Part shown: positions 7,544 to 22,120 of the stretch, piece by piece
Numbering within the stretch: the stretch's first letter is position 1
Layout: each line of letters begins with the position of its first letter
Virus record (IMG/VR): IMGVR_UViG_3300040788_000030
Span: 1-30,983 of that record
DNA: 30,983 nt
Source: a virus
Direction: 5' to 3' (one strand)
Notes under the pieces: generated by a model
The model's database searches: none
The model's input: only the letters and a program-made list of their open reading frames with translations
What the model was told of the DNA's origin: nothing
Position numbers and translations under genes: made by a program

Positions 7544-7572
7544 AGCCTGCTGCGTGTGCAGCGGGCTTTTTT
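7544..7572 (+). terminator. Rho-independent terminator between convergent genes
   Basis: A 10-bp stem with one G-T pair, AGCCTGCTGC (7544-7553) with GCAGCGGGCT (7558-7567), has a GTGT loop and a T run at 7567-7572. It ends the plus-strand operon; the minus-strand methyltransferase stops right beside it. Confidence 0.8.
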
Positions 7573-8362
7573 ATTGCCCAATCGGGTAGTTAGCGGTAAA
7601 TACTTCCCGCTTCACCTTCCTGTTAGTCTTCTTGCGGGCTACCGATACAGTCTGCTCGAGACTGGTCTGATGCCAGCCTTGACGCTTCCGATAGGCTTCT
7701 AAGATGTCGGAGGGGTAAGAGCTGAGCAGAAACTTGCCTTCTAGCTTAGATAGGGTCTTCAGCAACATTTCGAAGTCCTCAATGGTGTAGCCATCATAAT
7801 GAGCGCAGTTGCTATTGTAGTAGGGCGGATCGAGGTAGAAAAAGGACGTTGGCCGGTCGCGGGAGGTAATGATCCGGATGGCATCTGTACACTCAATTTG
7901 TACGCGCTGCATCCGAACCGCGTAGTCGAGGGTGAAACTTTCGCGCCGGTTCTGGATCTTCTTTCCCATCGTGTTTCCGGCCACGTCATAGCCCCAGGGG
8001 CCTTCGATCTTACTGGCAAAGCCCTGGTTGGCTAGTGCCCAGACGGCCCAGGCCCGCTTTAGCTCGGAGAACATGTCGGGATTGTCGTAGATGACTCTAG
8101 CCTGGCGATGCTGGTCGCGGCTGTGTAGCGTGATCTGTATCTGCTTCTCCAGACTGACGTAGTCGTGCTGGACGACCCGGTAGAAGTTCACGAGCTCGCG
8201 GTTGGTGTCATTGATTACCTCGAGCATCGATGGAGGTTTGTTCCAGAACACAGCACCACCTCCTACGAAGGGCTCCGCGTAAAGCTGGTGGTCGGGAATC
8301 ATGGTCAGAATGCGGCGCACAAGCTTCTGCTTGCCACCGTAGTAGCTGAAGGGAGGTTTCAT
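7571..8362 (-). CDS. Dam-type DNA adenine-N6 methyltransferase
   Basis: Class D12 adenine methyltransferase, 263 residues, a normal size. The N-terminus YYGGKQKL is the conserved PFx-W/Y-x-GGK motif that precedes SAM motif I, here YAEPFVGGG (residues 28-36). The catalytic motif IV is DPPY at 178-181 in FFYLDPPYYNS, followed by HYDGY. It would methylate adenine in a short site, possibly GATC, to protect phage DNA from restriction or to mark it. It stands alone on the minus strand between two plus-strand blocks, as accessory (moron) genes often do. No partner nuclease is visible. Confidence 0.92.
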   Translation of the reverse strand: MKPPFSYYGGKQKLVRRILTMIPDHQLYAEPFVGGGAVFWNKPPSMLEVINDTNRELVNFYRVVQHDYVSLEKQIQITLHSRDQHRQARVIYDNPDMFSELKRAWAVWALANQGFASKIEGPWGYDVAGNTMGKKIQNRRESFTLDYAVRMQRVQIECTDAIRIITSRDRPTSFFYLDPPYYNSNCAHYDGYTIEDFEMLLKTLSKLEGKFLLSSYPSDILEAYRKRQGWHQTSLEQTVSVARKKTNRKVKREVFTANYPIGQ

Positions 8363-15690: not shown

Positions 15691-17196
15691 TTAGCGGCGG
15701 TATTTGCGGCGGCGGTACTTGCCACCGGTAATCTTACGGGTCTGGCTCTTACGCTGGCAGAGCCACACACCTCCCTCGGTGGCGTCCGGTCCGTCGTCGT
15801 GGGCGTTGAGCTTGGGGTTGATGGCCAGGAACTGATCCTTCAGGGTCATCATGTGGGGGTTTTGCTTTTCGGCGACGTTGAAGACGAGCTGACCGGATGA
15901 ATTCAGGGGCTCAAGGGTCGACTCGATGCGGAAGAATTTCTCCGGCTTGGACCGGTTGTCGGGCTGGATCGAGATGTGGCCCCGCGTCTTGATCATCTCG
16001 TTGGTCAGCCGCAGGAATGTGTCCTCGTAGAAACTGGCCTGCAGACCACCGGCCTCGACGTACATGTACAGCGCGGTCTTTTCCCCCACCAGGTCGCGAA
16101 TGGTGTAGTACCAGCCGATCATCTTGGAGACCGTGGTCTGGTCGCAAAAGGCGTGGATGACGTAGAATTTGCCCTGCAGGTAGCCGATCAGTACGACGGC
16201 CTTGTAATCGCTCTTCTTTGAGTCGCGGTGAGAGGGATCCCCGTAGGCAATCAGGAACTCAAACTTGGTGAGCGGCGGTACCTCGTCCCAGTAGAGTGTT
16301 TCGAAGACGGTGCCCTCGACGATGGGATTGTTAAAGTACTCCTTCTGCCGGCTGCGGTAGGACATCTTGCTCAGGATGTCGTCGATGTCCTTTTCGGAGT
16401 TCTTCTCCGGCCAGCTGGAGCGGCCCTTGCGATCGCGGATGTTGATCACCTCGTAGTAGTCCGCCATCTCGACGGCCTCCTTCATGATGCAGACTGGGGC
16501 GATGTAGTTGCCGCAGAAAATGATGCGGTAGTTGCCCGATACGTCCACAGTGGGGATCAATGCCTGCTCCACCCAGTCCCAGCGCTCACGTACCAGGGCT
16601 GGGTTGCGGCAAAGCTTGTCATGGTCGAGATCGTCGATCAGCAGGCAGTCCGGCCGGGCGTGCTCATTCTTCGTTCCCCGCGGACTCTGGCCACCGCCGA
16701 TCGCCCGAAAGCTGACGCCGGTCTTGGTGACGAAGTTGCCTGTCTCCCAGCCGCGGTAGCCCTTCTGCGTGCCGTAATCGTTGATCAGTCGCTGGTTTGC
16801 CTCCAGGTTGATCATGTAGGGCATAAGCAGGTCGATGGCGTTGCTCTCGCTGTGGGAGGTCAGCAGGATGTTGCGGATCTCCTTTTTGGCCAGAGCCAGG
16901 TAGAGCACCTCCAGCATGGTGCGGGTGCTCTTGGCCATGCCCCGCGACCAGACGCGGGCCTCGTACCACCGCTTGTTGGCGACGATGCGCTTGGTGGCCC
17001 TCCGGTGAAAGGGGGCCGGTGGCGCTGAGGCGTAGTGTGGGAAGTGATACGCAAACCAGGCTTCGGGGTCGGCCTCCAGGCGGGCGATGCGCCGGACCTT
17101 CTCCCCGGCGGTTTCCTGGGGCAGCGGCGTTTCACGCTCGACGTTAGCCCGGAACTCGTCCCAGCTGATCAGTGCCTGGCGGGAGGTCATACTCAT
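15691..17196 (-). CDS. Terminase large subunit (Mu gp28-like)
   Basis: DNA-packaging motor, 501 residues, with an ATPase half and a nuclease half. The Walker A-like motif is SRGMAKST at residues 84-91 and Walker B is CLLIDD at 184-189, followed by LDHDK. The RNase H-like nuclease begins at AYGDPSHRDSKKSD (Asp320, with Asp330), continues in VVLIGYLQGKFYVIHAFCDQ, and a late acidic site is HDDGPDATEG near residue 475. It drives headful packaging through the portal. The start follows the small-subunit stop without a gap. Confidence 0.94.
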   Translation of the reverse strand: MSMTSRQALISWDEFRANVERETPLPQETAGEKVRRIARLEADPEAWFAYHFPHYASAPPAPFHRRATKRIVANKRWYEARVWSRGMAKSTRTMLEVLYLALAKKEIRNILLTSHSESNAIDLLMPYMINLEANQRLINDYGTQKGYRGWETGNFVTKTGVSFRAIGGGQSPRGTKNEHARPDCLLIDDLDHDKLCRNPALVRERWDWVEQALIPTVDVSGNYRIIFCGNYIAPVCIMKEAVEMADYYEVINIRDRKGRSSWPEKNSEKDIDDILSKMSYRSRQKEYFNNPIVEGTVFETLYWDEVPPLTKFEFLIAYGDPSHRDSKKSDYKAVVLIGYLQGKFYVIHAFCDQTTVSKMIGWYYTIRDLVGEKTALYMYVEAGGLQASFYEDTFLRLTNEMIKTRGHISIQPDNRSKPEKFFRIESTLEPLNSSGQLVFNVAEKQNPHMMTLKDQFLAINPKLNAHDDGPDATEGGVWLCQRKSQTRKITGGKYRRRKYRR

Positions 17197-20289: not shown

Positions 20290-20790
20290 ATGAAAAACCT
20301 TTTTTCCCTTCTCTCGCTCCTGTTCCTGCTGACCCTCAGCGGTGTGGGCAGTGAGCTCCGGGCGCAGGCCGACGAAGCGCTCACCGGCACCGAAATAACC
20401 GCCCTTCCCAGCGACGCTCCCGCTCCCGCTGGCATCACCTTGACCTTCGAGTCCAACGACGAGCTGAAGGCGTTCCTGGCCACCCCTGCTACCCCGGCGG
20501 GTACTATCACGGAGCAGGTAGCCATCCCGCAACCTGCCTACGCCATGCAGCTCGCCCCCGAGGACGGGCCGGATGAACCGGACGAGAGTCCCGAAAAGCT
20601 CACTGTCTGGGAATTCGTCAAACGCTACTGGGAGGAGATTGTCTTTGCCCTGATCCTCTTCATCGAGGTTATCGTCAACCTTACGCCCACCACCGTGGAT
20701 GATGCCGGCTTCCGCTGGTTGCGCCGAATCTTCAACGCCATCATCCCGAACCGATCTAAGACTTCCGGGGTCCGCCACCCCGTGAAGTAA
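20290..20790 (+). CDS. Secreted/membrane protein between capsid and tail genes
   Basis: A 166-residue protein with a convincing cleavable signal peptide (residues 1-26, hydrophobic LLSLLFLLTLSGVG, likely cut after AQA) and a second membrane helix at about residues 116-131 (EIVFALILFIEVIVN). A short tail, LTPTTVDDAGFRWLRRIFNA plus IIPNR, follows. The middle is Pro/Asp-rich. Similar tails with an I/V-x-LTPT motif occur in Bacteroidota phage membrane proteins of unknown function. A holin or superinfection role is possible but unproven. Confidence 0.72.
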   Translation: MKNLFSLLSLLFLLTLSGVGSELRAQADEALTGTEITALPSDAPAPAGITLTFESNDELKAFLATPATPAGTITEQVAIPQPAYAMQLAPEDGPDEPDESPEKLTVWEFVKRYWEEIVFALILFIEVIVNLTPTTVDDAGFRWLRRIFNAIIPNRSKTSGVRHPVK

Positions 20791-20809
20791 GACCTCTCTC
20801 CGGCGGCCC

Positions 20810-20901
20810 GGGTATCTGGCTGGTTTCGACCGGCTGGATACCCACCCCCGCGCACCGGCTCACTGGGAGCATTTGTAGTGGTTCGATTCCACCGGTACGC
20901 G
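20810..20901 (+). ncRNA. UUCG hairpin plus tRNA-like fold without anticodon arm
   Basis: Upstream of the sheath gene, 20810-20824 pairs with 20829-20843 as a 15-bp hairpin with three G-T pairs and a TTCG loop. After six bases comes a tRNA-like unit. Its acceptor-like stem is GCGCACC (20850-20856) with GGTACGC (20894-20900), one C-A mismatch. The D-arm is GCTC-ACTGG-GAGC (20858-20870). The T-arm is AGTGG-TTCGATT-CCACC (20877-20893, 4 of 5 pairs) with a canonical TTCGATT loop. Only six bases (20871-20876) replace the anticodon arm and variable loop. The unit is about 52 bases against about 73 for a tRNA, as expected if the 17-base arm is missing. Transcription is unproven. Confidence 0.55.
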
Positions 20902-20938
20902 CTAGGACATTTTCCACTAAGCTCAACCTCCTTTCAGT

Positions 20939-22120
20939 ATGGCACTGCCCGGCGTAAACGTGAACCTTCAGAACGGTGCTCTACCGGGCAGCGCGGACGG
21001 CGACGACGGTCTGGGCTGTATCCTGCTGCAGGGACCCGCAGCGGCCAGCCTTGCGCTGCTCACTCCCCGCCTGATCAGCTCCCTCCAGGATGCGATCGAC
21101 CTGGGACTGGACGCCGACTACGACGCGGCCGGCGAGGTGCATGTCTATCAGCACCTGCGTGACTTCTACGCCGAAGCCGGCGCCGGTCGCAGCGTCTGGA
21201 TCATGTTGGTCTCCCAGGCCGTCACGATGGCCACCATGGTCGACGTCGTCGAGGAGGACTACGCCCGCCGCCTCCTGGACGCCGCTGGCGGGAAGGCGCG
21301 TTTCCTCATCGTTACCCGCAATCCCGCCGACGGCTACGCCCTGGCTACCGTCGATGACCACATCGATGCCGACGTGGTGTCCGCGATCGGCGCGGCTCAG
21401 GAGCTCGGTGAGTTCTACCTGAATGAATTCACCCCCTTCCGCACGATTCTGGAGGGCTACGGCTACGACGGAGATCACGGTGGTCTGGTCGACCTGAAGC
21501 AGCGCACCGATAACCGCGTTGGCATCGTCATCGGTAACACCAGGGCTGGGGCCAGCGCCGCCGTCGGTCTGGTGGCCGGCCGCCTGGCCTCCATCCCCGT
21601 ACAGCGCAATCTCGGCCGCGTCCTGGACGGGCCGGTCCGCGCCGATGACATCTACCTGGGCACCGAGGAGTTCGGCCAGGTCTTCCGTACCGCCGCCACC
21701 ATTCACGATCGGGGCTTCATCACCTTTCGCCAGCACCCCGGCAAGGCGGGCTTCTACATCAGTGACGATCCGGTGGCCACCAACGGGCAGGACGACTACC
21801 GCCGGTTGGCCTACGGTCGCACGATCGATAAGGCGCTGCGCATTGCCTACACGACCTATGCTGGCGAGATCCTTGACGAGGTGGAGGTCGACACCCGCGG
21901 CCGCATCGAGCCGGTCAAGGCGAAGTACTACCAGTCGCTGATCGAGCGCGCACTGAACCAGGCCATGACCGCCCAGGGCGAGATCCTCTCGGTTGCCGCC
22001 ACGGTGGACCTGGAGCGCAACGTACTGGCCCTCGGGGTGGCCGTCGATCTGCGCATTCAGGTCTACGGATACGCCGATCCCATCACCATCAACCTCGGCT
22101 TCCTGCCGATCAACGCCTAA
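20939..22120 (+). CDS. Tail sheath protein (DUF2586-like)
   Basis: The contractile sheath subunit, 393 residues. It opens with LPGVNVNLQNG as Mu-type sheaths do, has long alternating alpha/beta segments (ILLQGPAAASLALLTPRLIS), RVGIVIGNTR, GRLASIPVQRNLGRVLDG and the C-terminal zone GFITFRQHPGKAGFYISDD, YRRLAYGRTIDKA and VYGYADPITINLGF. These fit the DUF2586 pattern of Bacteroidota phages. The tube gene follows after two bases, as expected for a myovirus. The 148-base leader holds the structured element described separately. Confidence 0.87.
   Translation: MALPGVNVNLQNGALPGSADGDDGLGCILLQGPAAASLALLTPRLISSLQDAIDLGLDADYDAAGEVHVYQHLRDFYAEAGAGRSVWIMLVSQAVTMATMVDVVEEDYARRLLDAAGGKARFLIVTRNPADGYALATVDDHIDADVVSAIGAAQELGEFYLNEFTPFRTILEGYGYDGDHGGLVDLKQRTDNRVGIVIGNTRAGASAAVGLVAGRLASIPVQRNLGRVLDGPVRADDIYLGTEEFGQVFRTAATIHDRGFITFRQHPGKAGFYISDDPVATNGQDDYRRLAYGRTIDKALRIAYTTYAGEILDEVEVDTRGRIEPVKAKYYQSLIERALNQAMTAQGEILSVAATVDLERNVLALGVAVDLRIQVYGYADPITINLGFLPINA

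Follow-up and report, generated by a model that had tools for sequence, protein, structure and literature searches.

A tRNA-like element without an anticodon arm before the tail sheath gene of a Mu-like phage, possibly a tRNA kept for its shape

Why phages carry tRNA genes is a long-standing question, and it takes a particular form at a locus where the tRNA-like sequence has no anticodon arm. The window (the whole stretch of DNA that was analysed, 30,983 nucleotides from the viral record IMGVR_UViG_3300040788_000030) holds such a compact fold just before its tail sheath gene, preceded by a long hairpin. Is this fold a product of chance, the remnant of a decaying tRNA gene, or an RNA that has been retained for something other than decoding?

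The sheath leader and its fold

The window belongs to a Mu-like transposable phage, with a MuA-like rve domain, a MuB-like AAA protein, Mu Gam, Mu F, a terminase, a capsid and a sheath. A role of the element as an attachment site was dropped because the first three of these mark the phage as transposable. A D12-class adenine methyltransferase gene (7571–8362, minus strand) lies on the strand opposite to its neighbours. Homologues of the sheath are found in Bacteroidota, with the nearest named prophages in Saprospiraceae.

The PHROG match of the sheath gene bears out the position assigned to the element in the original prediction, upstream of that gene, where it sits within a 148-nt gap that follows the gene for a putative membrane protein (Table 1). 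This upstream protein has no match in Pfam or PHROG. The only relatives recovered by a search with it were a near-identical contig and L009, the closest distinct phage (sheath 56% identical to that of the window), where 2038–2343 encodes a protein of 48% identity across the aligned part. The near-identical contig (IMGVR_3300040801_003854, L002) contains the exact element pattern. A search of viral contigs for that pattern, with near-identical records left out by the search, listed no match, and BLASTN with the 161-nt leader found none in phage and plasmid collections. As the neighbouring genes share a strand, and a consensus scan of the sheath leader matched neither a terminator nor a sigma-70 promoter, we infer that a transcript runs across the element.

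Table 1. Features of the sheath leader and its flanking genes in the window.
Feature	Position	Strand	Basis or remark
Upstream gene, putative membrane protein (166 aa)	20290–20790	+	Homologue at the equivalent position of L009
15-pair hairpin, TTCG loop	20810–20843	+	Arms 20810–20824 and 20829–20843; ends 5 nt before the tRNA-like element
Anticodon-less tRNA-like element, whole	20849–20904	+	MFE fold; L009 counterpart in the slot; slot shuffles 26/20,000
Acceptor-like stem, 5' strand	20849–20857	+	Pairs with 20893–20901; C20853 x A20897 mismatch
D-arm-like hairpin, GCTC-ACTGG-GAGC	20858–20870	+	MFE fold; not conserved in L009
T-arm, GTGG-TTCGATT-CCAC	20878–20892	+	MFE fold; T-loop identical in L009
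Acceptor-like stem, 3' strand	20893–20901	+	MFE fold
Tail sheath gene	20939–22120	+	PHROG 907, E 1.5e-32

When folded alone, 20849–20903 adopts a minimum free energy structure of -19.4 kcal/mol that coincides with the compact, anticodon-less fold of the original prediction, including the C-A mismatch that it had placed in the acceptor-like stem. This stem (C20849–G20857 with C20893–G20901) forms eight pairs around that single mismatch, and between the D-arm-like hairpin and the T-arm there are only seven unpaired bases, ATTTGTA, with no anticodon arm. Folding 20800–20910 gives the identical element fold. An alternative register, with a 2-nt bulge and C20849 opposite T20903, is equally stable (-19.3 kcal/mol), so that the position equivalent to 1:72 is C20849 x T20903 in one of the two registers; in L009 it is G-C, in a register of 7 + 5 pairs. 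The alternative is also the register that matches the tRNA gene of the relative L211 described below, and C20849 opposite T20903, followed by A20904, then resembles the C1xU72, A73 arrangement of an initiator. The D-stem GCTC/GAGC, on the other hand, has C:G where initiators have A11:U24, and there is no CAT anticodon either. If the 148-nt gap is folded whole, the hairpin persists and the bases of the element favour other pairings, which makes the fold of the mini-element plausible, not guaranteed.

Neither ARAGORN nor Rfam at curated thresholds (including RF00005) calls the element, which, together with the absent anticodon arm, supports the view that it is not a decoding tRNA. At lax Rfam thresholds the sole sense-strand match is to tRNA-Sec (14.8 bits, far under its cut-off), and ARAGORN at a lowered threshold was uninformative, returning masses of hits.

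The neighbouring hairpin is likewise present as had been described. Its 15 pairs comprise 12 Watson–Crick and three G-U pairs, and a T-A pair closes the TTCG loop. Three hairpins of at least 15 pairs, this one included, occur on the plus strand of the window, making it uncommon, not unique, and 3% of 90-mers drawn at random from the window score at least as high. Hairpins in the top 3% of their own sequence end 5, 15 and 6 nt before the (mini-)tRNA in the window, L211 and L359, respectively, that of L359 having 21 perfect pairs. A hairpin common to all members of the clade was looked for and not found: it is strong only in the window, L211, L359 and L169, weak in several relatives and absent from L009. 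On these sequences, hairpin plus tRNA appears to be a recurrent, not a constant, pairing in the group.

The same slot in related phages

Taken on its own, the element could be due to chance. Its fold energy does not exceed that of shuffled sequences (z -1.1), and when the window is shuffled with its dinucleotides preserved, 2% of the resulting sequences hold an equally good match to a descriptor with a D-arm and a middle of 15–25 nt, a share that becomes 12–21% with wider gaps. The leader, shaped only by translation and stability, might then hold a stable hairpin next to a sequence that resembles a T-arm with flanking pairing. Within the pre-sheath gap of the window, and with the D-arm ignored, the level of the element was reached in 26 of 20,000 shuffles. 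Over the whole collection a loose descriptor gave 13 hits against 4–9 in dinucleotide shuffles, a modest excess, and the strict one (at least 11 of 12 Watson–Crick pairs) gave six independent hits against 0–1 per shuffle, which is informative.

A counterpart occupies the 88-nt gap before the sheath ORF of L009, where GCGCGTG-(17 nt)-GGCGG-TTCGATT-CCGCC-CACGCGC forms a perfect acceptor stem of 7 bp and a T-arm of 5 bp, with the same T-loop as in the window. This pairing of 12 out of 12 was reached in none of 20,000 shuffles of that gap. The 17 nt in the middle leave no room for an anticodon arm and do not align with the middle of the window element. Comparison of the 12 stem pairs in the L009 register reveals six that are the same, four compensatory double changes (A-T/G-C, C-G/T-A, C-G/G-C and T-A/C-G) and two that are unpaired in the window. 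Conservation of the stems among relatives, on which the original prediction had hinged, therefore stands for one part of the structure only: the acceptor and T stems are kept with compensatory changes in one close relative, L009, which shares neither the D-arm nor the 15-bp hairpin. Two mini-elements, those of the window and L009, are known in the sheath slot.

Searches with the sheath brought more than 200 loci into the comparison of the slot, and in four relatives it holds a complete tRNA-Met(CAT), something that the original prediction had not anticipated. In L211 (sheath 50% identical) this gene, called by ARAGORN and Rfam, ends 17 nt before the sheath start; in L090 (51%), L359 (43%) and L141 (41%) it lies about 25, 28 and 65 nt before the sheath, respectively. 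In L011 (38%) the tRNA is full-length but scrambled and escapes ARAGORN, and several relatives have no tRNA in the slot. Besides their position, the four intact genes share with the window a T-loop of the form TTCRAnT, and the acceptor ends of the L211 gene (CGCGC...GCGCTA) are identical to those of the element; in L211 and L359 a strong hairpin precedes the tRNA, as in the window. However, ARAGORN and Rfam detect these genes, which form complete cloverleafs, while the window element has no anticodon arm and is missed by their covariance model. Since an element in the same slot of L009 is not reproduced by shuffling and complete tRNAs occupy that slot in four other phages, the chance reading is very unlikely and can be considered largely refuted; it is the comparison with relatives, at the level of sequence, that indicates the element to be real.

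Most of the phage tRNA-Met genes seem to be of the initiator type. Of 12 that were aligned, 10 have no pair at position 1:72 and nine have A:U at 11:24; the remaining acceptor pairs are intact in every cell of the alignment but one. The assignment follows the rules of a survey of bacterial initiators that reports a 1:72 mismatch in 98.6% of them and A11:U24 in almost all (PMC5143459), and it is less clear for L320 and L345 (C11:G24). Host initiators in genomes of this group resemble the phage genes.

Genes for tRNA-Met(CAT) also recur elsewhere in the head/tail operon, around the sheath in L065, L180 (= L320), L345, L279, L303, L048, L297 and L301, and about 3.9 kb downstream of it in L154; they are mostly initiator-like, and their distance from the sheath varies. 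Across 367 loci, every tRNA called by ARAGORN is a tRNA-Met(CAT) except for two odd ones in L090, both in its early region. These are adjacent tRNA-like genes (16302–16374 and 16224–16295, minus strand) reported as tRNA-??? on account of abnormal anticodon loops, and behind them lies a terminator-like hairpin with a T-run.

Other tRNA-like elements were observed away from the sheath. Those of L119 (18161, minus strand) and L121 (18443, minus strand) are syntenic, lie in the early region upstream of one shared small gene (59% identical proteins; a search with this gene found those two only) and fold into cloverleafs with a stub replacing the anticodon arm. L109 (20649, minus strand) has an intergenic bare minihelix, with a 7-bp acceptor, a 5-bp T-arm with a TTCGACT loop, and nine bases between them. 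Further early-region elements, in L150 (18872), L164 (19608), L098 (19847) and L120 (16465), all on the minus strand, pair perfectly or almost perfectly in acceptor and T-arm and have odd middles of 39–80 nt.

Descent and retention of the acceptor/T half

In the sheath tree, the window and L009 are sisters (100/99) separated by 0.91 changes per site. They fall in an 11-member group, with a poorly resolved branching order, that also holds L211 with L090 (97/95), L359 with L141 (100/100), and the tRNA-less L212, L168–L170 and L213. As relatives carry a complete initiator-type tRNA-Met in the slot, descent of the mini-element from a tRNA gene seems likelier than independent mimicry. Its descent from an initiator in particular has fair support, argued from position, T-loop and acceptor ends and not from a score: a covariance model built from the 12 aligned tRNA-Met genes recovers nothing of the mini-elements beyond the T-arm, which scores 10.2 bits in the window (E 0.65, rank 5) and 13.2 bits in L009. 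The simplest history would be a single loss of the anticodon arm before the split of the window phage and L009, with the acceptor/T half retained, although two separate losses are possible because the two middles do not align.

Such a history could also have left a pseudogene, that is, a phage initiator tRNA from which a deletion removed the anticodon arm and which is now decaying and functionless. The mismatch and short T-stem of the window would fit this decay, as would the loss of the D-arm in L009, the scrambled full-length version in L011 and the relatives whose slot is devoid of a tRNA. Nevertheless, L009 has kept all 12 pairs and the T-loop, and four compensatory double changes separate it from the window over a large divergence, an argument that would be weaker if two independent losses were recent. 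At 0.91 changes per site, an unconstrained sequence of 55 nt should be erased. A pseudogene is thus judged unlikely, and continued selection on the element has fair support in these comparisons. In the broader sense of a tRNA-derived or tRNA-like RNA with its acceptor/T half under selection, the element is probably genuine.

A cutting mark or a released RNA

The tRNA-like RNAs without an anticodon arm are already known, in bacterial Y RNAs and laboratory minihelices, as are tRNA-like cutting marks within longer RNAs. An example of the latter is the mascRNA of MALAT1, a tRNA-like structure in a longer transcript that serves as a signal for tRNA-processing enzymes. In both mini-elements the acceptor stem is stacked on a T-arm with a TTCRANN loop, with one mismatch in the window and 12 of 12 pairs in L009, and this helix lies inside a putatively transcribed leader, the structure and position looked for in an mRNA processing element. 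Bacterial RNase P binds the stacked acceptor/T helix and cleaves minihelices in vitro, substrates that resemble the element in having a T-loop on top of some 12 stacked pairs (PMC11221534). Those minihelices, however, are laboratory constructs with an RCCA end, whereas the element is natural, lies in an mRNA leader and has no encoded CCA. RNase P also cleaves several phage RNAs and mRNAs, among them the C4 and M3 RNAs, which similarly place a tRNA-like signal for processing enzymes inside a longer transcript (PMC11143913). Unlike in those RNAs and mascRNA, cleavage here is predicted from structure and position, and no common origin is implied.

The preferred account, held tentatively and at a little less than an even chance in its full form, is that the tRNA slot was reduced to its acceptor/T half and kept as an RNase P/tRNase Z cutting mark that separates capsid and sheath messages. 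An ancestor of the window phage and L009 would have lost the decoding half of the tRNA gene, leaving the acceptor stem and the T-arm (plus, in the window, the D-arm-like hairpin), probably because this is the half that recruits both enzymes. On the late polycistronic transcript, the half-tRNA would be cut at its 5' border by RNase P and at its 3' border by tRNase Z. The capsid-side message upstream would then be shielded by the 15-bp hairpin close to its 3' end, and that for the sheath and tail would start with a short leader of about 35 nt. Both the processing and its effect on sheath expression are deduced from structure and position. Because RNase P acts poorly on initiators with C1xA72 (PMC5143459), that of a cutting mark need not have been the original role of the slot.

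Several observations argue for the cutting mark: the complete pairing of L009 with its four double changes, the intact tRNA-Met of four relatives, the sister relationship of the mini-elements across their divergence, the fact that the retained part is the helix bound by RNase P, and the strong hairpin 5–15 nt before the (mini-)tRNA in the window, L211 and L359. Against it count the presence of only two mini-elements in the slot, with middles that cannot be aligned, the C-A mismatch of the window and its two pairs out of 12 that are open in the L009 register, the recovery of nothing but the T-arm by the tRNA-Met model, the lack of the hairpin in L009 and its weakness in several relatives, and the other pairings that win in the whole-gap fold.

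Alternatively, the element might act in trans, as a released and perhaps CCA-tailed mini-tRNA that occupies a tRNA-binding enzyme, such as a host defence toxin directed at the acceptor end, while offering anticodon nucleases no anticodon. One proposed task of phage tRNAs is to offset host defences that deplete tRNAs, cleavage of the tRNA-fMet anticodon loop is known (PMC10264068), and acceptor-directed toxins exist (PMC11559606, PMC10435456); moreover, similar anticodon-poor elements occur in the early regions of related phages. The fixed position of the element in the sheath leader speaks against such a role, for which both a discrete RNA and its target are hypothetical, and we consider it rather unlikely. 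Its extension to a whole class of anticodon-less mini-tRNAs in Bacteroidota Mu-like phages, comprising sheath-slot and early-region members that act as stable trans decoys, for instance against acceptor-directed defence enzymes, with the sheath-slot members stemming from initiator tRNAs that shed their decoding half, is more doubtful still.

A long stem adjoining a tRNA mimic also recalls bacterial Y RNAs of the YrlA type, which combine a Ro-binding stem with a tRNA-mimicking module that, like the element, has no anticodon arm; tRNA mimicry by bacterial Y RNAs has been described (Chen et al. 2014, cited in PMC4726728). In contrast to a YrlA, the long stem here forms its own hairpin on the 5' side and does not pair the two ends of the RNA, the YrlA model has no match in 20700–21050 even at E values up to 10, and a search of the record for the TROVE/Ro domain (PF05731) that detected its positive control in Deinobacterium found none, although the host might supply such a protein. 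A YrlA with its Ro protein was rejected on these last two grounds, and a Y RNA identity is extremely improbable.

Returning to the cutting mark, an anticodon-less element in the initiator-tRNA slot of a phage was not found in the open-licence papers searched. A phage tRNA gene fixed in the late operon appears here to lose exactly its decoding half and to keep the half that is read by processing and tRNA-binding enzymes. This suggests that the tRNA has been retained for its shape and not for decoding, perhaps to mark a cutting site in the mRNA. If the retained half is indeed cut or bound, some phage tRNAs would serve to punctuate mRNAs or to occupy tRNA-binding enzymes, rather than to supply codons.
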